Shown here: piece after piece, positions 11,307-41,507 of the stretch | Position numbering within the stretch: position 1 is the first letter of the stretch | How the letters are laid out: the number at the start of each line of letters is the position of its first letter | Assembly: GCA_913062845.1 (NCBI GenBank) | Contig: CAJXVZ010000027.1 | Location: forward strand, 1 to 41,546 | Source of the DNA: an uncultured Psychroflexus sp. | GTDB lineage: Bacteria > Bacteroidota > Bacteroidia > Flavobacteriales > Flavobacteriaceae | DNA length: 41,546 nucleotides | Reading direction: 5' to 3' | Program-made: the position numbers and the translations under genes | Notes under the pieces: generated by a model | What the model was told of the DNA's origin: nothing | The model's database searches: none | What the model saw: the letters and a program-made list of their open reading frames with translations, nothing else

Positions 11307-13835
11307 CTAATAACCTCCATCGCCGTCATACTCACCTTCTCCTCTACCGTTTTCTCTTTTCTTATTCTGATTGAATCTGTAAATAAAGGTAGCGGTCAAT
11401 TGAGGCTCACGCCATTGAAAACTGCTTTCTCTTGTAAAAGTTGGTGCGACAGTAAATCGGTCTCTGATCCTGGTGTTGAATAAATCTCTGACATTTAATG
11501 AAATTGTACCATTATCCTTTAAAATGTCTTTACTCAGTGCGATATTAACACTGGTAATCGATTCTGTTTTAGTTTGTGCATTTTCAAATGGACCGCGGTA
11601 ATTAACATTGGTTTGAAATTGTACTTTATATGGCAGTTCAACCTTTGCAGAAAACCTTGATGTAATACTGTTATTTTCCACACCAAAATCCTGTCCGTTG
11701 AAAAAACCATCGGTAACGAATCTGAATCCATTGACACTCCAGTTCAACCTCAACCAGTCTGTTGGATTGTAGAGTGCGCCGACTTCAAATCCCATTCTTT
11801 GATTTGTGGACAAATTGATTGGTATAGTCCTTACGACAACCAATCCGTCATTTGTGGTTTGTCCTGTAACCTCATCAATTCTTTCAAAAGCATCAGTTTC
11901 CCTTTGGTAATAAACAGATGCGGTAAGTGTAAATTTTTCATCCCAGCGTTTTAAGTAACCCAGATCGAATGCATTGGCAAATGCCGGTCTTAAACTTGGA
12001 TTCCCCTGAAACACATTGACTCGGCTCGAAAGCGACGGTGTTGGATTCAAAAACCAACCTCTTGGTCTGTTAATTCTTCTGTTATAACCTAAAGTAATGT
12101 TCTCATCTTCGCCTATTTCGTAGATTAAATTGAGTGTAGGAAAGATACCGTCAAATCTGTTATCAAAATTCAGATCTACATCTTCTCCCAATAATTCTTC
12201 AAATTGACTTAAATCATATTCTGATGTCGTCTGACCTTTCAACTGAGTGTACTCGTATCTCAAACCCAATAAAAATGAAAAATCACCAAATTTGTTACCA
12301 TATTGCACATAAGCTGCATATACATTCTCATCAAATTCAAAATCGTTGGTCAATAAGGTGTCAACCACAAAATTATTTTCAGATTCTTCAAGTTCTCTAA
12401 AAAAAGGCTCCTCGGTATTTTCGAGATTTATTCTGAATCCCGCCTCAAACTGAGCTTCTCCCATTGGTCTGACATAATCTGCCTGAATTAAATACTCTTT
12501 TTGATCCTCTCTTTGAACCACGGACTCATCAGGAATAAACTGCTCCTGACCTGCTGTTACATCTTCAGTGATTATGGTCGGAGCGAATTCACTATCTTCA
12601 GAATACTGAAATTCTGTGTCAAGTTCGTGACCATCATTATCAAATTTCTTATTGAAATTTAAGGAGACTTGATATGAAGATTCATCTTCTATTTCTCTTT
12701 CTCTTCTTAATGTTTCATTGATGAGTTCGCCTTCGTTAAATCTTCTAGTAAAATTATTGGTGAGATCATCATCCTCGCCGGATCGTCCGAAATAACTTGC
12801 TGTAAATGAAGTATTGTAGTCAAAGAAATAGGTCGCACCTATGTTGTAATTAAAATCTTGCCTGTTTCGATTATAATCCCTTGTCTCTGAAATTCTGTCA
12901 AACTGTCTCAAAGGATTATCATCGGTAAAATTGCTATCAAAATTGGCATTACCCGGTGGTTTTCTGTGCGAGTAACCAATATTCCCAAAAAAGTTAAACT
13001 TTTCGGTTCTCCAGTTTAAATTAGCTGCTGCTCTATTGTTCAGAGGTGTTCCAGACTGCAATCTCACCGAACCATTAAACCCAAGCGTTTTATCTCTTTT
13101 CAGGATCAAATTTATGATACCGGCTGTACCCTGAGCATCATACCTTGCAGATGGACTGGTGATTACTTCTACCCTTTCAATGGCATCTGCAGGTAATTGT
13201 TGTAGAACGTCTGTATTTCCAAATCCTGCCAGCGCAGAAGGCTTTCCGTTGATCAATATTCTTACATTTTCATTACCTCTTAAACTGATACCGCCTTCAA
13301 TATCAACACTCACAGAAGGTACGTTTTCAAGAGCTTCGGTGACCGTTCCTCCGGCCACTGTTAGATCTTTTCCTAAGGTATAAATTTTCTTATCCAATCT
13401 TACGTCCAGTTGAGTGGTTTCTGAGACGACAGTAACCTCTTCAAGTTCTGCTGTTTTAAAGGCCAATCCGATAGTTCCCAAATCTTTATTAGCATTCACT
13501 AGTACATTTTTCATCGATTTAGTCTCATATGAAATATACTCGAATCTGATATCATAAGTACCTTCTATGATTTTTATGGAAAAATTTCCGTCAAAATCTG
13601 TTACACCGCTTTCAACGACTTCTTCTGTTCCTGGTTCAAAAATGGCAACTGTTGCATATTCCAAAGGTACTTTTTGTTCTTTATCTATTAACGTACCGCT
13701 TACTTTATAGCTTTTTATTTCTATAGCAGAAGTTTTATTTTTATTTGTTAAACTATTACTGTCACTTACTTTATAATTTTGAGCATTAAGATTAAAACCT
13801 AGAAAGATTAATAAACAAGTCGTTAAATACTTCAT
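11307..13835 (-). CDS. TonB-dependent receptor, outer-membrane beta-barrel family
   Basis: This 842-residue outer-membrane protein has a signal peptide (MKYLTTCLLIFLGFNLNAQ). A carboxypeptidase-regulatory-like domain follows (about 46-130, VSGTLIDKEQKVPLEYATVA), then a plug (about 160-250, with SVDIEGGISLRGNENVRILI and DAIERVEVITSPSARYDAQG) and a long beta-barrel. The acidic, Gly-rich C-terminal tail after YRFNQNKK is common in this Bacteroidota subfamily. Such receptors import bulky nutrients, siderophores or peptides using TonB energy, but this branch has no SusD partner here and the substrate is unknown. It appears monocistronic and divergent from the trp operon, with about 170 bp between its start and trpL. 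Confidence 0.9.
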   Translation of the reverse strand: MKYLTTCLLIFLGFNLNAQNYKVSDSNSLTNKNKTSAIEIKSYKVSGTLIDKEQKVPLEYATVAIFEPGTEEVVESGVTDFDGNFSIKIIEGTYDIRFEYISYETKSMKNVLVNANKDLGTIGLAFKTAELEEVTVVSETTQLDVRLDKKIYTLGKDLTVAGGTVTEALENVPSVSVDIEGGISLRGNENVRILINGKPSALAGFGNTDVLQQLPADAIERVEVITSPSARYDAQGTAGIINLILKRDKTLGFNGSVRLQSGTPLNNRAAANLNWRTEKFNFFGNIGYSHRKPPGNANFDSNFTDDNPLRQFDRISETRDYNRNRQDFNYNIGATYFFDYNTSFTASYFGRSGEDDDLTNNFTRRFNEGELINETLRREREIEDESSYQVSLNFNKKFDNDGHELDTEFQYSEDSEFAPTIITEDVTAGQEQFIPDESVVQREDQKEYLIQADYVRPMGEAQFEAGFRINLENTEEPFFRELEESENNFVVDTLLTNDFEFDENVYAAYVQYGNKFGDFSFLLGLRYEYTQLKGQTTSEYDLSQFEELLGEDVDLNFDNRFDGIFPTLNLIYEIGEDENITLGYNRRINRPRGWFLNPTPSLSSRVNVFQGNPSLRPAFANAFDLGYLKRWDEKFTLTASVYYQRETDAFERIDEVTGQTTNDGLVVVRTIPINLSTNQRMGFEVGALYNPTDWLRLNWSVNGFRFVTDGFFNGQDFGVENNSITSRFSAKVELPYKVQFQTNVNYRGPFENAQTKTESITSVNIALSKDILKDNGTISLNVRDLFNTRIRDRFTVAPTFTRESSFQWREPQLTATFIYRFNQNKKRENGRGEGEYDGDGGY

Positions 13836-13996
13836 GAATTTTTTTATTTAATATTTTGACTTGATAATGACATCTATGTTAAAAGGGTTCCCGTTAAAGT
13901 TGAGTTAAGAAGTCTTAAGGGCATATTAAGTTGAACCAATTCACAAAAAAGTCTGAAAAAAATGGTCTAAAATATTTCTCAGTTTAAAATCATAAT

Positions 13997-14004
13997 TATA
14001 TTTG
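13997..14004 (+). promoter_or_regulatory. Possible -7 element of the trp operon
   Basis: TATATTTG is an exact TAnnTTTG match, only four bases before the trpL ATG, so transcription from it would start at or very near the leader start codon and give a leaderless or almost leaderless message. No TTG sits 17-23 nt upstream. Either the -33 box is degenerate or the true promoter lies further upstream. Confidence 0.4.
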
Positions 14005-14008
14005 TTTT

Positions 14009-14065
14009 ATGATTTTTATAGAATTAAATAATTGGTGGTGGTCTCATAACATAATTTTGTCGTGA
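14009..14065 (+). CDS. trpL: trp operon leader peptide with three consecutive Trp codons
   Basis: An 18-codon frame reads MIFIELNNWWWSHNIILS, with TGG-TGG-TGG at 14033-14041 and stop TGA at 14063-14065. An in-frame stop lies upstream at 13985 and no other ATG is available. Three adjacent codons for the rarest amino acid, in a tiny frame just before trpE and followed by alternative RNA helices, is the hallmark of a ribosome-mediated transcription attenuator. The stop codon lies inside the 5' strand of the antiterminator (14058-14066). A ribosome that finishes the peptide would therefore block antitermination, while one stalled at the Trp codons would leave it free. This is inference from sequence. 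Confidence 0.85.
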   Translation: MIFIELNNWWWSHNIILS

Positions 14066-14107
14066 GTAACACTTTATACAATAACTTTAAAGCCTGTCCT
14101 CACGACA
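14058..14107 (+). promoter_or_regulatory. trp antiterminator helix
   Basis: TGTCGTGAG (14058-14066) is perfectly complementary to CTCACGACA (14099-14107): nine Watson-Crick pairs, extendable by two G-U pairs (14056-14057 with 14108-14109). The 3' strand contains the loop and most of the 3' arm of the terminator, so the two structures exclude each other. A weak 4-5 bp alternative (14043-14047 with 14062-14066) could act as a helix-1:2 equivalent. Confidence 0.8.
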
Positions 14108-14116
14108 GGTTTTTTT
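14091..14116 (+). terminator. trp attenuator (intrinsic terminator upstream of trpE)
   Basis: CCTGTC (14093-14098), the 5-nt loop CTCAC and GACAGG (14104-14109) form a six-pair stem, extended by a G-U and an A-U pair. It runs into seven T residues (14110-14116). It lies 13 nt before the trpE start and 25 nt after the trpL stop, the position expected of a regulated terminator. Confidence 0.85.
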
Positions 14117-14129
14117 ATTTTATGATGAT

Positions 14130-15539
14130 ATGAAATATAAATTGAATACCACATATAAAAAGCAATTAGCTGATACTCTCACACCGGTAAGTGTTTACCT
14201 TAAACTAAGAGACGAGTTTCCACACAGCATATTGCTGGAAAGCAGCGACTATCATACTAGTGACAATAGCTTTTCATATATCTGCTGCCAGCCTATTGCC
14301 GAGATAAAACTGGTAAATGGTATATTGACTAAGAATTATCCTGATGGAAAAACTGAAGAAATTTCATTGAAACATTCTGAAAGTCTTACTGCCCACATCA
14401 GTGATTTCAAAAGTAAATTTGAAATAGAAGAACAGGATTTTAAATTCATCAACAATGGTTTGTTTGGTTTTACTGCCTATGATGCTGTAAGCCATTTTGA
14501 AGAAGTTGATATTGAAAAAAAATCAGACGACCTCAATATTCCCGACTTGTATTATGCCGTTTATCAAAACATTATAGCCATCAACCATTTTAATAATGAG
14601 GCTTATATTTTTGAACATTTATTCCCTCAACGCACAAGCAGACAACTGGATATCATTCAGTTGTTGCAAAATCAGATTTTGGCCACCTATGATTTCAGCA
14701 CACAATCAGCGCCCGAATCCAATCTGACTGATGATGAGTACATTGAAATGGTCAAAAAGGCTAAAGAGCACTGCCTGCGTGGTGATGTTTTTCAACTGGT
14801 CTTATCCCGGAGGTTTTCTCAGGCTTTTCAGGGAGATGAATTTGAAGTCTATCGCAGTTTGAGGCATATCAATCCTTCACCTTATCTTTTTTATTTTGAT
14901 TATGGTGATTTCAAGATTTTTGGCAGCTCACCCGAAGCGCAACTGGTTATAGAAAATAAAAGAGCAGAGATTCACCCTATTGCCGGAACCTTTAAACGCA
15001 CAGGTAACGACGCTGAAGACCGCAAACTGGCAGAGAAACTCTCTGAAGATCCCAAAGAAAATGCAGAACATGTCATGTTGGTCGATCTGGCCAGAAACGA
15101 TTTGAGCAGACATGGCAAAGCCGTAAAGGTTCAGGATTATAAAGACATTCAGTTCTTTTCGCACGTTATCCATCTGGTGAGTAAAGTGACAGCAGAGTTA
15201 CCCAAGGATACGCCAATATTCGATCTTGTGGCAGATACTTTTCCGGCAGGAACCTTAAGTGGCGCACCAAAACCTATGGCACTAAAGCTTATAGAAAAAT
15301 ACGAACCTGTAAATCGCAGTGCCTATGGAGGTGCTATAGGATTTATGGATTTCAAAGGCAATTACAATCATGCCATCATAATTCGTTCATTTGTGAGTAA
15401 AAACCATAGGCTTCACTATCAAGCCGGTGCAGGAATTGTAGCCGATTCAAATGATGAAAATGAATTACAGGAAGTATACAATAAGCTCAGGGCTCTGACC
15501 AAAGCCATTGATCACGCAGAACATCAAACAAAATTTTAA
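14130..15539 (+). CDS. trpE: Anthranilate synthase component I
   Basis: This 469-residue chorismate-utilising enzyme makes anthranilate from chorismate, using ammonia supplied by TrpG. The N-terminal ILLES (LLES at 35-38) matches the element that binds feedback-inhibiting tryptophan in TrpE and argues against a PabB assignment. The catalytic C-terminal half shows GDVFQLVLSRRF, SPSPYLFYFDYGDFKIFGSSPE-type residues, PIAGTFKRTG, LVDLARNDLSRH and a GTLSGAPKPMA loop. ATG 14130 is used because the ATG at 14122 meets a stop after three codons. Control by attenuation from the trpL leader is inferred, and allosteric inhibition is expected from LLES. Confidence 0.96.
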   Translation: MKYKLNTTYKKQLADTLTPVSVYLKLRDEFPHSILLESSDYHTSDNSFSYICCQPIAEIKLVNGILTKNYPDGKTEEISLKHSESLTAHISDFKSKFEIEEQDFKFINNGLFGFTAYDAVSHFEEVDIEKKSDDLNIPDLYYAVYQNIIAINHFNNEAYIFEHLFPQRTSRQLDIIQLLQNQILATYDFSTQSAPESNLTDDEYIEMVKKAKEHCLRGDVFQLVLSRRFSQAFQGDEFEVYRSLRHINPSPYLFYFDYGDFKIFGSSPEAQLVIENKRAEIHPIAGTFKRTGNDAEDRKLAEKLSEDPKENAEHVMLVDLARNDLSRHGKAVKVQDYKDIQFFSHVIHLVSKVTAELPKDTPIFDLVADTFPAGTLSGAPKPMALKLIEKYEPVNRSAYGGAIGFMDFKGNYNHAIIIRSFVSKNHRLHYQAGAGIVADSNDENELQEVYNKLRALTKAIDHAEHQTKF

Positions 15540-15555
15540 ACCGAATACAACGAAA

Positions 15556-16119
15556 ATGAAAATACTGGTTATTGATAATTACGATTCTTTTGTTTACAAT
15601 CTGGTACATTACCTAGAGGCTTTTGATTGCGAAGTAGATGTGGTAAGAAACAAAAGTGTTGATCTGGATAAGGTTGAAAGATACGATAAGATATTACTTT
15701 CGCCTGGTCCTGGTATTCCTGATGAAGCCGGACAATTAAAAGCCGTGATCAAGCAATTTTATAAAACAAAACCTATTCTCGGGGTTTGCCTCGGTCAACA
15801 GGCCATAATGGAAGTTTTTGGAGGCAAACTGGAGAATTTAAAGGAAGTTTATCATGGTATGGCGAGTAGAATTAAGATCACCGTTGACGATGAGGGATTA
15901 TATGAAGGTTTACCAAAATCCATTGAAGTTGGCCGATACCATTCCTGGGTAGTCAATAAGACCTTACCAGAAGAATTGGAAGCTACCAGTATAGATGAAT
16001 ATGGACATATCATGTCTTTAAGACACAAGACCTATGATATTAGAGCAGTACAGTATCACCCTGAATCGGTGCTCACACCTGATGGTAAAACTATAATTAA
16101 GAATTGGATAAATTCATAA
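15556..16119 (+). CDS. trpG: Anthranilate synthase component II (glutamine amidotransferase)
   Basis: This 187-residue class I glutamine amidotransferase releases ammonia from glutamine for TrpE. The catalytic triad is visible: Cys78 in GVCLGQQA, and His168 and Glu170 in QYHPES. The oxyanion stretch SPGPGIP is also present. The chosen ATG is 16 nt after the trpE stop and begins MKILVIDNYDSF, the usual start of the family. An in-frame ATG at 15508 inside trpE would add 16 unconserved residues. Some bacteria share this subunit with PabB, and I cannot exclude that here. It is not fused to TrpD. Confidence 0.95.
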   Translation: MKILVIDNYDSFVYNLVHYLEAFDCEVDVVRNKSVDLDKVERYDKILLSPGPGIPDEAGQLKAVIKQFYKTKPILGVCLGQQAIMEVFGGKLENLKEVYHGMASRIKITVDDEGLYEGLPKSIEVGRYHSWVVNKTLPEELEATSIDEYGHIMSLRHKTYDIRAVQYHPESVLTPDGKTIIKNWINS

Positions 16120-16120
16120 G

Positions 16121-17116
16121 ATGAAAGACATTTTAAATAGACTAATTGCTTTTGAAACCCTTTCTAAAGCAGAAGCGAAGAATATATTAACACGAATTTC
16201 AACTGAAGAATTCTCAGAAATTCAAATTGCGTCTTTTCTTACGGTTTTTATGATGAGAAATATTACGCTGGCTGAATTGGAAGGATTCAGAGAAGCATTA
16301 TTGGAATTATGCCATGCGCTCGATTTATCTGACTATGATGCCATAGATTTATGTGGAACAGGCGGAGATTCAAAAAATACATTTAATGTGTCCACGCTTG
16401 CAGCTTTTGTGACTGCCGGTGCTGGTGTAAATGTGGCTAAACATGGTAATTACGGGGTTTCTTCTGTAAGCGGGTCATCTAATGTTCTGGAGCATTTAGG
16501 CTTAAAATTCAGACAAGCTGAAGACTTTCATAAAAAATGTCTGGACGAAGCAGGCATTTGCATTTTACATGCCCCTTTATTTCATCCAGCGATGAAAAGC
16601 GTGGCACCTATCCGAAAATCTTTAGCCCTAAAAACATTTTTTAACATGCTTGGCCCGATGGTAAACCCTAGCAATCCGCAAAAGCAAATGGTTGGAGTTT
16701 ACAGCCTTCAGTTGCTTAGGCTATATGCCTATTTGTATCAAAAGCAGCAAAAATCATATGCCATTGTTCATGCGCTTGATGGCTATGATGAGATTTCTCT
16801 GACCCAATCGGCCAAAGTAGTAACGCACAAAGAAGACCGACTGATTAAAGCTGAAGATTTTAATGTCAAAACTCACACGCCAGAAGCCATTTTTGGGGGC
16901 AATAAGGTTGAAGAAGCCTCAAAAATATTTATGAATGTATTGAATAATTCCGGCACAGAACAACAAGTCAATACTGTTTGTGCGAATGCAGCCGTAGCCA
17001 TTTCTGTCTCAAAAGATATAGACCTGAAAGAAGCTTTTGATCAAGCTGAAATTTCACTCAAGTCTGGAATGGCTTTACAGAAGTTCAAAGTTTTAAAAGA
17101 ATTATCAAGACAATAA
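16121..17116 (+). CDS. trpD: Anthranilate phosphoribosyltransferase
   Basis: This 331-residue enzyme joins anthranilate and PRPP to give phosphoribosylanthranilate. The PRPP-binding glycine-rich segment DLCGTGGDSKNTFNVST is near residue 79, followed by VAKHGNYGVSSVSGSSNVLE. PIRKSLALKTFFNMLGPMVNP and the later DGYDEIS segment are also typical. It starts one base after trpG, consistent with tight coupling. Length and motifs are normal. Confidence 0.96.
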   Translation: MKDILNRLIAFETLSKAEAKNILTRISTEEFSEIQIASFLTVFMMRNITLAELEGFREALLELCHALDLSDYDAIDLCGTGGDSKNTFNVSTLAAFVTAGAGVNVAKHGNYGVSSVSGSSNVLEHLGLKFRQAEDFHKKCLDEAGICILHAPLFHPAMKSVAPIRKSLALKTFFNMLGPMVNPSNPQKQMVGVYSLQLLRLYAYLYQKQQKSYAIVHALDGYDEISLTQSAKVVTHKEDRLIKAEDFNVKTHTPEAIFGGNKVEEASKIFMNVLNNSGTEQQVNTVCANAAVAISVSKDIDLKEAFDQAEISLKSGMALQKFKVLKELSRQ

Positions 17117-17192: not shown

Positions 17193-17990
17193 ATGCATAT
17201 TTTAGAAGAAATCACAAGTTTCAAACGAAAGCTTTTAGATCATAAAAAAAAGATCATTTCCATTCAGGACTTAGAGAGAAATCCTTTGTTTGAAAAGCCC
17301 TGTGTTGCCTTAACCGAATCTATAAAGACATCTCAGTTTGGAATAATTGCAGAACATAAACGCCGCTCACCGAGTAAACCCCATATCAATTTTAAAACTG
17401 ATGTTTTTGATGTTGCCAAAGCTTATGAAGAAGCTGGTGCAGCAGGAATGTCAGTATTGACTGAACAGAAATACTTTGGTGGAAGTCTCGAAGACCTCGT
17501 GCTATGCAGATCTACTTGTCAGCTACCGCTTCTAAGAAAGGATTTTACGGTAGATGAATACCAAATCTTAGAAGCCAAAGCGCATGGCGCAGATGTGATC
17601 TTACTTATAGGGGCATGTCTAAGCACAGATGAAATCAAAAATTTTTCAAGTCTGGCGAGGTCTTTAGGTATGCAGAGTATTCTCGAAGTTCATAACCGCG
17701 AAGAGCTCGAAAACAACTATGTTGAAAATATTGATGTTGTTGGTGTTAATAACAGAAATCTGAAAACTTTTGAAGTTAATTTAGACACAAGTTATGATCT
17801 ATTGTCCTACATGCCTACAGATGTCGTGAAAATTTCTGAAAGCGGTATTAGAAACCAAAGAGATATTTTTGACTTGAAAGCCGCCGGTTTTGATGGGTTT
17901 TTACTCGGTGAACACTTTATGAAAACTGAAAATCCGGGCGAAACGGCAAAACAATTTATTAATGGACTTAAAAGCAGTTTGAATAAATGA
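17193..17990 (+). CDS. trpC: Indole-3-glycerol phosphate synthase
   Basis: This (beta/alpha)8-barrel protein of 265 residues closes the ring of CdRP to give indole-3-glycerol phosphate with loss of CO2 and water. Visible motifs are IIAEHKRRSPSKP (catalytic Lys and phosphate region), LTEQKYFGGSLEDL, LLRKDFTVDEYQI (catalytic Lys), VGVNNRNLKTFEV and KISESGIRN. The ATG giving MHILEEITSFKR fits the family better than the GTG two codons earlier. It is a separate enzyme, not fused to TrpF as in E. coli, and overlaps trpF by four bases (ATGA). Confidence 0.95.
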   Translation: MHILEEITSFKRKLLDHKKKIISIQDLERNPLFEKPCVALTESIKTSQFGIIAEHKRRSPSKPHINFKTDVFDVAKAYEEAGAAGMSVLTEQKYFGGSLEDLVLCRSTCQLPLLRKDFTVDEYQILEAKAHGADVILLIGACLSTDEIKNFSSLARSLGMQSILEVHNREELENNYVENIDVVGVNNRNLKTFEVNLDTSYDLLSYMPTDVVKISESGIRNQRDIFDLKAAGFDGFLLGEHFMKTENPGETAKQFINGLKSSLNK

Positions 17991-18622
17991 AAGTAAAAAT
18001 CTGTGGCATTAACGATATTGATAGTATGAAAGCCCTTTCAGGCCTTCAGCCTGATTATTTTGGTTTTATTTTTTATCAAAAATCACCAAGGTTTTTTTCT
18101 TTATCTGCCTTACCGGAGCTATCTGACACTAAAAAAGTTGGTGTTTTTGTTGATGCCGATACAGATTATATTGTAAGAAAGAAGGTAGATTTAGGCTTAG
18201 ATGTAATCCAGTTACACGGTAATGAATCCTCAGATTACATTTTAAAATTAAAATCTGAATTACAGGATAGTATTGAAATCTTTAAAGCCATATCTATTTC
18301 GACTGAGAAGGATTTTGAGATCATCAGTCAGTATCAAGAACTTGTCGATCTTTTTATTCTGGATACCAAAACACCGCTTAAAGGTGGCAGCGGTAAACAA
18401 TTTGACTGGGATCTGCTACAACATTACCCGGTGGAAAAACCTTTCTTACTCAGCGGCGGAATAGGTCCGGATGATGCTGAAGCTGTTTTAGAGATTTATA
18501 AGAGGCATCCTCTTATGGCTGGTGTTGATATCAATTCAAAATTTGAAATAAGTCCTGGCCTTAAGTCTGTGAAAGACGTTCAAAATTTTTTAAAAACTAT
18601 TAAAACGAAAGATCATGTATAA
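17987..18622 (+). CDS. trpF: Phosphoribosylanthranilate isomerase
   Basis: This 211-residue barrel enzyme performs the Amadori rearrangement of phosphoribosylanthranilate to CdRP. KVKICGI carries the catalytic Cys at the first strand. PDYFGFIFYQKSPRF, KKVGVFVDAD (catalytic Asp), VIQLHGNE, LDTKTPLKGGSGKQFDW and FLLSGGI follow in the expected order. It overlaps trpC by four bases and trpB by eight, so translation of the three is likely coupled. Confidence 0.95.
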   Translation: MKVKICGINDIDSMKALSGLQPDYFGFIFYQKSPRFFSLSALPELSDTKKVGVFVDADTDYIVRKKVDLGLDVIQLHGNESSDYILKLKSELQDSIEIFKAISISTEKDFEIISQYQELVDLFILDTKTPLKGGSGKQFDWDLLQHYPVEKPFLLSGGIGPDDAEAVLEIYKRHPLMAGVDINSKFEISPGLKSVKDVQNFLKTIKTKDHV

Positions 18623-19793
18623 TGTCAATGAAAAAGGATTTTACGGAGAGTTTGGTGGAGCATTCATTCCTGAAATGCTCAAACCAAATGTAGATGAATT
18701 GAGGGAAAACTATTTGAAAATTTCTGAGTCTGAGGATTTTCAAAGGGAGTTTCATCAACTACTGAAAGATTATGTAGGTCGGCCAACGCCTTTGTATTTT
18801 TCAAAACGTTTAAGTGAAAAGTACCAGACCCAAATCTACCTGAAACGCGAAGACCTTTGCCATACAGGTGCACATAAAGTAAACAATACCATCGGACAAA
18901 TTTTGCTGGCGCAAAAGCTAGGCAAGAAGCGTATTATCGCTGAAACAGGTGCAGGACAACATGGTGTGGCTACCGCAACCGTATGTGCTTTGATGGGCAT
19001 GCCTTGTGTCATTTACATGGGTGCTATAGACATCAAACGACAAGCTCCGAATGTAGCACGAATGAAAATGTTAGGCGCTAAGGTTGTAGCTGCAGAGTCA
19101 GGTAGCAAAACCTTAAAAGATGCCACAAACGAGGCTATTAGAGACTGGATCAATAATCCGGAAGACACACATTATATCATAGGTTCTGTTGTTGGTCCAC
19201 ATCCTTTTCCGGATATGGTCGCCAGATTCCAGTCGGTCATTTCAAAAGAAGTGATGAAACAGTTAAAAGAACAATCGCACAAATCCAAACCGGATTATGT
19301 ATTAGCCTGTGTAGGCGGTGGTAGCAATGCCGCCGGTATCTATTACGATTTTCTGGAGGATACAGAAGTCGGCATCATAGCGGTAGAAGCAGCCGGAAAA
19401 GGTGTTTCTACCGGAGAATCTGCAGCGACTTCACAGCTTGGTCGTCAGGGTATTATTCATGGCAGTAAAACCTTACTGATGCAGAATGCTGATGGGCAAA
19501 TCACCGAGCCGTATTCTATCTCAGCGGGTCTTGATTATCCGGGAATTGGCCCTATGCATGCGCATTTGTATGCTTCTAAACGGGCGGAGTTCATTAGTGT
19601 TACCGACGACGACGCTATGCAGGCCGGTTGGGAACTGAGTCAGTTGGAAGGCATCATACCAGCTATTGAAACGGCTCATGCTTTTGCGGTGTTTAAAGAA
19701 CGTAAATTCGAACCTGATGATGTCGTGGTGATCAACCTGTCCGGACGAGGTGATAAAGATTTAAATACATATATGGAATATTTTAATTTGTAA
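18615..19793 (+). CDS. trpB: Tryptophan synthase beta chain
   Basis: This 392-residue PLP enzyme joins indole and serine to make tryptophan. The PLP lysine is Lys88 in HTGAHKVNN. GRPTPLYF, AETGAGQHGVATATV and the phosphate-binding CVGGGSNA are visible, as is the SRAEFISVTDDDA-type C-terminal region. It is the TrpB1 type that pairs with TrpA. Unusually, trpA is not the next gene: a predicted outer-membrane protein gene of 1.3 kb intervenes, with 127 bp of AT-rich spacer before it. Confidence 0.97.
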   Translation: MYNVNEKGFYGEFGGAFIPEMLKPNVDELRENYLKISESEDFQREFHQLLKDYVGRPTPLYFSKRLSEKYQTQIYLKREDLCHTGAHKVNNTIGQILLAQKLGKKRIIAETGAGQHGVATATVCALMGMPCVIYMGAIDIKRQAPNVARMKMLGAKVVAAESGSKTLKDATNEAIRDWINNPEDTHYIIGSVVGPHPFPDMVARFQSVISKEVMKQLKEQSHKSKPDYVLACVGGGSNAAGIYYDFLEDTEVGIIAVEAAGKGVSTGESAATSQLGRQGIIHGSKTLLMQNADGQITEPYSISAGLDYPGIGPMHAHLYASKRAEFISVTDDDAMQAGWELSQLEGIIPAIETAHAFAVFKERKFEPDDVVVINLSGRGDKDLNTYMEYFNL

Positions 19794-19920: not shown

Positions 19921-21234
19921 ATGCACAAGATAATTTTTAGTCTATTTTTAGTTTTCTTAATACCTATGTCAGCTTTTGCTCAGTTAGACATATCACAGAA
20001 GGGAGATAATATCATAATTAGTAATCTTTCAAACAATTCAACTGAAATACTCATTTTAAATAGCGATATAGATAATTTTATTTTGATGCCTAATCAAAGT
20101 ACTTCTGTTACACCGAAGTCTTTTTTAACTAAAAAAGCACTAAAAGAAATAAAAATTTTAAGCCTATATACCTATTCTTCATATTTGGCTGATCATAAAA
20201 TTTCAGTTTATAAAATGCGAGAAGAAATAATTAAATACAGAGGTCGCAGAAAAAATTCACTACAATTAAAATCTATAGAAGATTTGCTGAACTCCCCAAA
20301 GGATACTTTCGGGAAATTTGATAAATTAGATGAAGAAATTGATCTTGAAGCTTCTTTTGATGAAAAAAATAAATACAAATTATTTATAAAAAAAATAGAA
20401 CAAAAACTTATTCCTCTTAAGGATGAAAAAAACTTTTTAATTGATAATAGAATTGCTTTTGAAAATAAAGTAAATGAAACAGAGGAAAGTTTGGCTAAAA
20501 GCTACCTGTTTGATTTTTTAAATATAGAAATTGATCCTGAAGATCAAAAAGAAATAAATTTTTTAATCAGTCACTACAATAGAGTCAAGTCCATAAAAGA
20601 AAAGTATGAAAACAGATCAATAAACAATCATGGAAGTCTTAGAGAATTGGACTTTAAAATTTTTGAAACCAAAGGCAGCTTTTTACAATTTTCAATTATA
20701 GGTTCTGCAATTGGTGAAGATATTGGTGGAGAAAATGAAGAGGTTATTTTCAATATTAATCCTGAAATTAGTATAAGAGTCGGCAGATACAGACTAGGGC
20801 ATAATACAATGATAGAAAATAATATTAATCTTGGATACAGTTATTATGTGGCTGAAAAAATTGATGAAAAAATAGTTATAAACGATATTGTAAATAATAT
20901 AGATGAAGTTTATGATAAATTTCATTTAGGCACTTTAGGTTTGGATTTTATTTTGAAAGGTGGAGTTAAAAAACCTTCACTTTTTGGATTTGGCATAGAA
21001 GGTGGCGGAACCTACCTAATTTCTGATACTTATAATTTTATGCCAGACCTTGATTTAAGTGAATATACAGAAACAGACCTAGGCTACTACTACGGTGGAT
21101 TTTTAATGATAGGTGATAGATTTAATGTAAAAATTGGATTTAGAAGATATGTATTGAGGTACACTATTGAGACAGTGGATAGAAATTACTTAAACACAGG
21201 TTTAACCAGATTTAGTCTTTCCTATAGATTTTAA
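19921..21234 (+). CDS. Unrecognised predicted outer-membrane protein inserted between trpB and trpA
   Basis: This 437-residue protein belongs to no family I recognise. It has a clear signal peptide (MHKIIFSLFLVFLIPMSAFA, then Q), a short N-terminal strand-rich part (about 21-80) and a charged helical middle (about 90-230) with coiled-coil character. The C-terminal 200 residues show alternating strands (FLQFSIIGSAIG, PEISIRVGRYRLG, NLGYSYYV, VKIGFRRYVLRY), ending in FSLSYRF. The terminal Phe is usual for outer-membrane barrels. The gene looks visibly more AT-rich than trpB or trpA, with many AAA, ATA and TTA codons, which suggests a later arrival. No transposase or repeat flanks it. A role in tryptophan synthesis is unlikely. 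Confidence 0.75.
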   Translation: MHKIIFSLFLVFLIPMSAFAQLDISQKGDNIIISNLSNNSTEILILNSDIDNFILMPNQSTSVTPKSFLTKKALKEIKILSLYTYSSYLADHKISVYKMREEIIKYRGRRKNSLQLKSIEDLLNSPKDTFGKFDKLDEEIDLEASFDEKNKYKLFIKKIEQKLIPLKDEKNFLIDNRIAFENKVNETEESLAKSYLFDFLNIEIDPEDQKEINFLISHYNRVKSIKEKYENRSINNHGSLRELDFKIFETKGSFLQFSIIGSAIGEDIGGENEEVIFNINPEISIRVGRYRLGHNTMIENNINLGYSYYVAEKIDEKIVINDIVNNIDEVYDKFHLGTLGLDFILKGGVKKPSLFGFGIEGGGTYLISDTYNFMPDLDLSEYTETDLGYYYGGFLMIGDRFNVKIGFRRYVLRYTIETVDRNYLNTGLTRFSLSYRF

Positions 21235-21309: not shown

Positions 21310-22080
21310 ATGAATAGAATTACAAAAAAACTTAAAGCCCCTCATAAATTACTATCTATATATTTTACAGCAGGCTACCCAAAACTTGAAGACACTGTTG
21401 AAATTCTTAAGCGTTTACAAGACAGCGACGTAGATATGGTAGAAATTGGTTTGCCATACAGCGATCCTCTGGCAGATGGACCTACCATACAACAAAGCTC
21501 CACTCAGGCTCTTAAAAACGGAATATCCACCAAAAAGTTATTTGCACAAATACAGGACATTCGTCAACACATTGAGATACCACTAATTGTTATGGGGTAT
21601 TTCAATCCCATGCTGCAATACGGTGTAAGTCAATTTTGCAAAGACGTTTCAGATATTGGCATTGACGGCCTCATTATGCCGGATTTACCTTACGACTACT
21701 GGTTAGAACATCATAAAGATGATTATGAGCATAATAATTTAAAACACATTCAATTAATTACGCCTCAAACTTCAAAAGAAAGAATCCTTGAAATAGATAA
21801 GCAAAGTGAGGATGCGTTTATCTACATGGTATCCTCGTCCTCAACCACAGGCAGTCAGATTGGGTTTGCTCAAGAACAACTGGATTATTTCGAGCGCATA
21901 GGAAGTTACAATTTACAAACACCTCAAATTGTAGGTTTTGGTATAAAAGATAATGAAACTTTTTCGCAGGCTACATCGCATGCCAAAGGCGCAATTATTG
22001 GAAGTGCTTTTATTAAAATGCTCTCTAAACGGGGTTTAAATGGTATAGATGGGTTTATCAAAAATATCAGACAACCTTAA
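21310..22080 (+). CDS. trpA: Tryptophan synthase alpha chain
   Basis: This 256-residue barrel enzyme cleaves indole-3-glycerol phosphate to indole and glyceraldehyde 3-phosphate, passing indole to TrpB. Catalytic Glu45 (VEIGLPYSDP) and Asp56 (LADGPTIQ) are present at the spacing seen in Salmonella (49 and 60). YFNPMLQYG, GLIMPDLPYD and SSSSTTGSQ also fit. ATG 21310 (MNRITKKL) is preferred to the in-frame TTG at 21250, which adds 20 unconserved residues. It ends two bases from the converging pseudouridine synthase gene with no terminator visible. Confidence 0.95.
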   Translation: MNRITKKLKAPHKLLSIYFTAGYPKLEDTVEILKRLQDSDVDMVEIGLPYSDPLADGPTIQQSSTQALKNGISTKKLFAQIQDIRQHIEIPLIVMGYFNPMLQYGVSQFCKDVSDIGIDGLIMPDLPYDYWLEHHKDDYEHNNLKHIQLITPQTSKERILEIDKQSEDAFIYMVSSSSTTGSQIGFAQEQLDYFERIGSYNLQTPQIVGFGIKDNETFSQATSHAKGAIIGSAFIKMLSKRGLNGIDGFIKNIRQP

Positions 22081-41129: not shown

Positions 41130-41148
41130 TTTCCAATATAATATTAAA

Positions 41149-41475
41149 ACAAGCCATCTTATCGCTCCGATCCCGATAACTATAGGGACTATCGGAGAGG
41201 AAAGTCCGGACACCATAGTGCAAGCATAGCGGATAACATCCGTCTTACTGACGATAAATGTCAGTAAAGGACCAGTGCAACAGAAAGCAAGTACAGTCAG
41301 GCTGTAGTGAAATCAGGTAAACTCTATGCGGTGAAATACCATGTAAACCAGCGTTTCGATAGCTATCGGAAGAAGGTCGCACGCCTGATGTTGGAGGGTT
41401 GGTAGCTAGAGCCCAACAGTAATGTTGGGTCCAGATAAATGATAAGACTCGACAGAATCCGGCTTATAGGCTTGT
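41149..41475 (+). ncRNA. rnpB: RNase P RNA (bacterial type A)
   Basis: This is the catalytic RNA that removes 5' leaders from pre-tRNAs. The conserved core GAGAGGAAAGTCCGGAC is at about 41195-41211, and the 3' partner ACAGAATCCGGCTTA follows near 41453-41467, giving the P4 pairing region. P1 is visible as ACAAGCC (41149-41155) with GGCTTGT (41469-41475), which sets both ends at about 327 nt. Two peripheral segments contain GATAGCTATC-type palindromes (degenerate near 41164-41188, exact at 41357-41368). Peripheral helices vary between species, so activity need not be affected. Confidence 0.93.
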
Positions 41476-41481
41476 CCCCCT

Positions 41482-41507
41482 AAAATCCCCCGAATGGGGG
41501 ATTTTTT
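41482..41507 (+). terminator. Intrinsic terminator of the RNase P RNA gene
   Basis: AAAATCCCCC (41482-41491), loop GAAT and GGGGGATTTT (41496-41505) give a ten-pair stem ending in a T run. It begins seven bases after the 3' end of the RNA. Confidence 0.9.

Follow-up and report, generated by a model that had tools for sequence, protein, structure and literature searches.

The trp operon and its leader

The window, meaning the entire 41,546-nt stretch of DNA analyzed, comes from an uncultured bacterium of the genus Psychroflexus and carries a trp operon: trpE, trpG, trpD, trpC, trpF, and trpB, then trpA, all downstream of a leader region (Table 1). The first-pass annotation, made from the letters alone, had described the attenuator of a flavobacterial trp operon, and both the operon and its flavobacterial origin hold. 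A 437-residue ORF with no Pfam match (19921-21234) separates trpB from trpA, and a class A RNase P RNA occupies the right end of the window (41146-41482). Elsewhere, in loci L007 (2960-3040) and L021 (1147-1225), matches to the Flavo-1 RNA motif (RF01705) lie near the trp operon on the minus strand.

Table 1. Leader elements and trp genes, in window coordinates
Feature	Position	Strand	Basis
Bacteroidota -7 promoter box, TATATTTG (TAnnTTTG)	13997-14004	+	sequence; position of the F. psychrophilum box
Leader peptide ORF, MIFIELNNWWWSHNIILS, stop TGA	14009-14065	+	sequence
Three consecutive Trp codons (TGG TGG TGG), predicted stall site	14033-14041	+	sequence; family conservation
Strand 1, 5' side of the predicted 1:2 hairpin (14037-14040, 14043-14047, 14049-14051); partner 14058-14073	14037-14051	+	folding
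Strand 2, TGTCGTGAG, antiterminator 5' strand, includes leader stop codon	14058-14066	+	sequence, folding, covariation
Strand 3, CTCACGACA, covers the terminator loop and the first part of its 3' arm; fully complementary to strand 2	14099-14107	+	
Intrinsic terminator, 10-bp stem (14089-14098 with 14104-14113), loop CTCAC	14089-14116	+	folding, covariation
trpE, anthranilate synthase component I	14130-15539	+	best NCBIfam match, under that model's curated cut-off
trpG	15556-16119	+	
trpD	16121-17116	+	
trpC	17193-17990	+	
trpF	17987-18622	+	best NCBIfam match, under curated cut-off
trpB	18615-19793	+	
trpA	21310-22080	+	

The leader ORF opens with the ATG at 14009 and runs for 18 codons to the TGA at 14063-14065. 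Strand 2 (TGTCGTGAG) is the exact reverse complement of strand 3 (CTCACGACA) over 9 bp, and the antiterminator helix that they form grows to 11 bp in the folding model (14056-14066 with 14099-14109). Strand 2 starts 25 nt after the first Trp codon, or 23 nt for the extended helix. Because the terminator stem is 10 bp long, the first residues of its seven-T run (14110-14116) pair with AAA. On re-reading of the sequence, the 18-codon leader with its TGG-TGG-TGG, the perfect 9-bp antiterminator, the bases shared between the helices, and the leader stop codon inside the antiterminator all proved exact as first described; the terminator with a seven-T tail exists as well, with the stem listed in Table 1.

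The leader folds with a z-score of −3.57, none of 200 shuffles being equally stable, and contains the single terminator-like site in 13500-14600, where shuffles give 0.4. The string TGGTGGTGG occurs once in the window against 0.13 copies expected. That it is rare in itself was considered and rejected: the genome has 72 copies on both strands, and a reversed control also gives 72. The weight rests instead on the combination of parts and on their conservation at the same place in relatives.

The promoter box adjoins the ATG, so that promoter and start codon nearly coincide, as had been noted. In Flavobacterium psychrophilum, according to the transcriptome study PMC9723704, the −7 box spans −12 to −5, and 5.5% of mapped mRNAs are leaderless. 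Applied to the window, this spacing places +1 at 14009, the A of the leader ATG. The position of the box thus predicts a leader that is leaderless or nearly so. The motif itself is common (41 copies of TAWNTTTG in the window against 40.2 expected). Among 103 family leaders, TAnnTTTG lies no more than 90 nt upstream of the Trp codons in 102, one of these boxes reading TATCTTTA. The predicted 5' UTR is 0-5 nt in 77 of the 103 leaders and 8-40 nt in the other 26, figures biased toward short 5' UTRs by the choice of the box closest to an in-frame ATG.

Alternative RNA structures

The first-pass annotation judged the layout more compact than the four-segment enterobacterial version. Folding revises that judgment: after the Trp codons, a strand 1 pairs with strand 2 in the window (14043-14047 with 14062-14066; 14049-14051 with 14058-14060), and the segment 14033-14076 containing this 1:2 hairpin folds at −11.5 kcal/mol. 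Because a strand 1 is predicted, this is not a reduced four-segment plan. Comparative support for strand 1-strand 2 pairing appears modest: across 44 mostly distant loci, namely those with a strand 2 offset of 17-34 among the 49 discussed below, the pairing reaches −8.9 against −8.3 kcal/mol, 310 of 20,000 permutations being as good. Covariation of strand 1 in the family alignment, as tested, was absent, and is not counted as evidence.

The two helices were then weighed with the ribosome in different positions, its footprint being set, as a simplification, to end 18 nt beyond the first Trp codon or 16 nt beyond the stop. For the full-length window RNA, a ribosome stalled at the Trp codons gives antiterminator 0.97 and terminator 0.03; a ribosome at the stop codon gives terminator 1.00; and no ribosome gives terminator 1.00 together with the 1:2 hairpin. 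(An inner helix beside the antiterminator was considered and left uncounted.) These values support the logic proposed at first, in which a completed peptide covers the antiterminator strand and permits termination, whereas stalling at the Trp codons frees it. When no ribosome is present and the RNA ends at 14107, the antiterminator (0.99) is favored over the 1:2 hairpin, so that protection by strand 1 is incomplete in the model; the terminator and the 1:2 hairpin win only from 14110 on. The 1:2 hairpin is nevertheless predicted in the window at the majority of RNA lengths.

Across the 80 family loci, the window among them, a fully made terminator still prevails at equilibrium with the ribosome stalled: its mean is 0.95, and it falls by more than 0.5 in just three loci. 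With the 3' arm half made, the same loci give terminator values of 0.14 for the stalled ribosome, 1.00 for the ribosome at the stop, and 0.90 for a shuffled spacer, and the terminator drops by more than 0.5 in 69 of them. The corresponding values for the 49 other loci are 0.48, 0.97, and 0.88, and 22 of these loci switch. Since the full terminator wins at equilibrium even with a stalled ribosome, a kinetic decision must be assumed for most members. In the model, the window copy could work at equilibrium, having a longer antiterminator, a weaker stem, and a full-length terminator value of only 0.03.

Conservation and covariation in the Flavobacteriaceae

The family set comprises the best 80 of at least 573 confirmed relatives, and a Trp-codon leader with a terminator lies upstream of trpE in all 80 of those best relatives. 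Of 149 family genomes, 145 contain a match to a model built from 77 leaders (E≤0.01), and in 137 the E-value is under 1e-8; some of the 149 had supplied sequences to the model. In all eight other genomes with a listed trpE, the match sits before that gene. Three consecutive Trp residues (WWW) occur in 100 of 103 family leaders (102 of them distinct), a length of 18 residues in 87, and a TGA stop in 94. The leader stop codon overlaps strand 2 in 70 of 77 family loci, and the complementary pair CGTGA and TCACG is found in 72 of the 77.

Two family loci, L030 (1159-1464) and L076 (1177-1461), contain a small GIY-YIG ORF between the terminator and trpE (Pfam PF01541; E-values 1.9e-17 and 3.6e-17, respectively). 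In L030 a 35-nt inverted repeat (86% complementarity) brackets this ORF; such a repeat was looked for around the L076 ORF and not found.

Covariation supports the terminator strongly in the 77 family sequences: 99.9% of cells are paired, 5 of 10 pairs show double changes (matched by none of 500 shuffles), and there are 17 double-change cells against 1.9 in shuffles (again 0 of 500). In the same sequences the antiterminator shows no covariation, because the helix hardly varies within the Flavobacteriaceae, and this result is not counted as evidence. A second alignment (A2) draws on wider taxa.

A2 holds 34 loci: 23 hand-picked family rows and 11 from other families, of which eight were found by searching the order to which genome G298 belongs and three come from the class sample. 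(The G298-order search gave 10 loci; two, L213 and L215, were not parsed and were left out.) Some of the other-family loci have GTCGTAAG as strand 2 together with a TAA stop, and one has ACCGTGAG; the partner strand changes too. Across A2, 91.3% of antiterminator cells are paired against 88.6% in shuffles (0 of 500), 4 of 8 pairs show double changes (5 of 500), and 8 double-change cells compare with 1.8 (0 of 500); further pair types number 11 against 9.3 (39 of 500). The comparison proposed in the first-pass annotation, for conserved Trp codons and compensatory changes in both helices, thus came out positive for Trp codons and terminator in the family alone, and for the antiterminator only when wider taxa were added. 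The shuffle control leaves relatedness in, and for that reason a permutation test on 49 loci, most of them more distant, is also leaned on. By eye, the ORF after the trp leader resembles TrpB, not TrpE, in L207-L212 and L214, all from the G298 order, and TrpE in L216.

Divergent trpE loci

Beyond these relatives, 80 wider loci were hand-picked from homology matches, 12 of them from many phylum-level matches. Setting aside 12 Flavobacteriaceae leaves 68 loci upstream of trpE; all but two divergent family members represent further families, orders, and classes of the phylum. A script found a Trp leader and terminator in 49 of the 68. Among the 19 failures, L132 and L166 have WWW leaders by eye, and the genomes of L152, L155, L156, and L159 have an RF01692 match about 1.2 kb upstream of trpE; 13 loci, five of them phylum-level, have no leader detected by script or by eye. 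Outside the class, 6 of the 12 phylum-level loci passed the script and one more has a leader by eye.

In the 49 loci, the stretch that follows the Trp codons has a mean fit of −15.0 kcal/mol with the terminator of the same locus, against −11.2 kcal/mol when terminators are permuted (sd 0.35; 0 of 20,000). The best strand 2 begins at an offset of 20-30 nt from the first Trp codon in 40 of the 49, against 49% of foreign pairings; from the known size of the ribosome footprint, this offset would place it immediately beyond the front edge of a ribosome held up at the Trp codons. Taken singly and scored as contiguous helices, 20 of the 49 distant loci beat 95% of foreign terminators and 23 beat 95% of shuffles. 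(Fits made with RNAduplex, by which 14 of 49 exceeded 95% of foreign hairpins and 21 exceeded 95% of shuffles, were replaced, as that program allowed long gapped matches.) Strand 2 uses the terminator 5' arm in 35 loci and the 3' arm in 13, with one tie; among the 20 individually clear loci, 15 use the 5' arm and five the 3' arm.

Three loci carry two tandem Trp leaders before trpE: L113 (genome G161), L219 (G148), and L134 (G177). In L113 these are MITINKIWWWQSKL and then MINSKLNNWWWPVLTQYVGQSRYKNI. In all three, only the first leader is followed by a terminator that the script finds clean; the second terminator is imperfect or missed.

A proposed model for trp attenuation

The window contains codons for the end product in a leader ORF, an intrinsic terminator, and an antiterminator that shares terminator bases. 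Very probably, this leader is a ribosome-mediated transcription attenuator that senses charged tRNA-Trp and controls read-through into trpE. For the window we infer the start site, stalling, termination, and response to tryptophan, as follows. RNA polymerase would start at about 14009, placing the leader AUG at or beside the 5' end, so that a ribosome could load at once. With Trp plentiful, the ribosome would reach the UGA at 14063 and cover strand 2, and the terminator (14089-14116) would form. With Trp scarce, the ribosome would stall at 14033-14041, its front edge before 14058, covering strand 1 and leaving strand 2 free; strand 2 would then capture the emerging terminator loop and the start of the 3' arm, and transcription would continue. 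With no ribosome, strand 1 would hold strand 2 and the terminator would form.

The best-placed alternative, although improbable, keeps this attenuator and adds a role in trans for the released leader RNA or peptide, such as has been reported for Sinorhizobium trpL. The leader peptide is conserved past the Trp codons in many relatives, which have NLRxTS-like ends, and PMC7298713 reports a trans role of this sort in another system. The conserved codons may, however, reflect pairing with strand 2, and the window peptide lacks the motif.

It is considerably less likely that the terminator is constitutive, or marks a small-RNA gene upstream of trpE, with the Trp codons and the strand 2 match incidental. 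In the genome of the window, secondary matches of the 77-leader model have E-values of 3e-4 and weaker. Among the secondary matches listed for other family genomes, 13 weak ones were retrieved and the first four of these read: L185 has a two-Trp leader with a GTG start, and L182-L184 have no Trp leader. L182 (genome G443 of the family, contig C8) nonetheless carries a near-identical hairpin, GGCTTGTC-TCAC-GACAAGCC, with no Trp leader in front, so the terminator hairpin alone is not specific. Against coincidence stand the WWW of nearly all family leaders (100 of 103), the average fit of distant leaders to their own terminators (unreached in 20,000 permutations), and the 20-30 nt spacing of strand 2 from the Trp codons in 40 of 49 loci. 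Control by a protein or directly by tRNA, with the ORF a by-product, is least credible of all: TRAP and T-box systems control trp operons in Firmicutes, but at gathering scores an Rfam search of the whole window returns RNase P alone and no T-box, and the feature conserved here is a run of Trp codons, in frame, whose spacing from strand 2 is fixed.

Taking ribosome-mediated attenuation as the preferred explanation, the family and wider loci can be read jointly. With rather less assurance than for the window itself, we think it probable that a distinct topology is in use in the Flavobacteriaceae and in one or more further lineages of the class (one being that of G298, G272, and G324, perhaps Bacteroidales), in which a stop-bearing strand 2 captures the terminator loop and 3' arm and the leader peptide begins at or near the 5' end. 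Since strand 2 would capture the loop and 3' arm, the decision would fall late, with polymerase already at the terminator. By the same reading, Trp leader attenuation would be old and widespread in the Bacteroidota, would have switched between 5'-arm and 3'-arm topologies, and would mostly escape RNA family models.

These results suggest that trp attenuation follows its textbook logic in bacteria whose initiation is not Shine-Dalgarno-led, and from a leader whose predicted start is at the AUG or close to it. They also provide an alignment across the family, together with a wider set, for an RNA modeled only partly in Rfam. As loci differ in the side of the terminator that the antiterminator uses, the set could serve to study how sides are switched without loss of function.

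Relation to known systems

The idea that the element is unknown was considered and rejected: its relatives form Rfam family RF01692, Bacteroid-trp, catalogued since 2010. Like the window leader, Bacteroid-trp lies upstream of trp genes in the Bacteroidota and has a short ORF with Trp codons, and the two can be aligned through close relatives of the window. In a permissive search, the window scores 30.7 bits for RF01692 (cut-off 49; E 0.055-0.091) and 29.2 bits for RF00513, Trp_leader (cut-off 41); a genome-scale RF01692 search did not find the window copy. Of 20 hand-picked relative loci, 18 reach the RF01692 cut-off, L062 and L069 falling below. Because its score is under the cut-off, the window copy is a divergent relative and not a formal member, and its homology to Bacteroid-trp rests on intermediates from the same genus and the family.

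Coverage by RF01692 is partial in two respects. As printed, the model stops in the terminator 5' arm and draws only a hairpin around the Trp codons, and so describes neither terminator nor antiterminator. In addition, of 158 genomes of the class, 49 of which have a close TrpE, 7 give an RF01692 score above the cut-off, four of the seven being outside the family, and among 20 hand-picked divergent loci (17 outside the family; L118, L123, and L126 are the Flavobacteriaceae) no Rfam family reaches its cut-off.

A comparative study from 2004 reportedly also listed candidate attenuators in Bacteroidetes. Bacteroid-trp originates from a 2010 paper (PMC2864571), and PMC6414381 discusses it in F. psychrophilum as an E. 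coli-like leader. The F. psychrophilum transcriptome offers strong clues to leader-peptide attenuation before amino-acid operons in the same family, from start-site mapping and RNA structure; the passages concerned show no structure, and 'trp' is absent from the main text (PMC9723704). The first-pass annotation knew of no experimentally characterized trp attenuator in this class. That part stands, insofar as no experimental test of any member was among the papers listed in searches of the open-access literature; it needs amending in that relatives had been catalogued as RF01692 and discussed for F. psychrophilum (PMC6414381), and leader-peptide attenuation ahead of amino-acid operons had been inferred from the transcriptome of that species (PMC9723704). 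The kind of element is already known, and the novelty is one of detail, in the topology, the start, the distribution, and the quantified antiterminator test.

Like the window leader, E. coli trpL (RF00513) has adjacent Trp codons and mutually exclusive helices, and by the same scoring its strand 2 begins 20 nt after the first Trp codon, compared with 25 nt in the window. The E. coli strand 2 pairs with the terminator 5' arm (5 of 5 pairs), whereas the window strand 2 pairs with the loop and 3' arm. Moreover, the E. coli trpL ORF is preceded by a 5' leader that includes a Shine-Dalgarno sequence, unlike the window leader, which is predicted to be leaderless. In this last respect there is a parallel with the polycysteine attenuators of mycobacteria, in which a leaderless regulatory ORF contains codons for the sensed amino acid. 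Both would be leaderless regulatory ORFs (predicted, in the case of the window), although the phylum, the amino acid, and the output differ.
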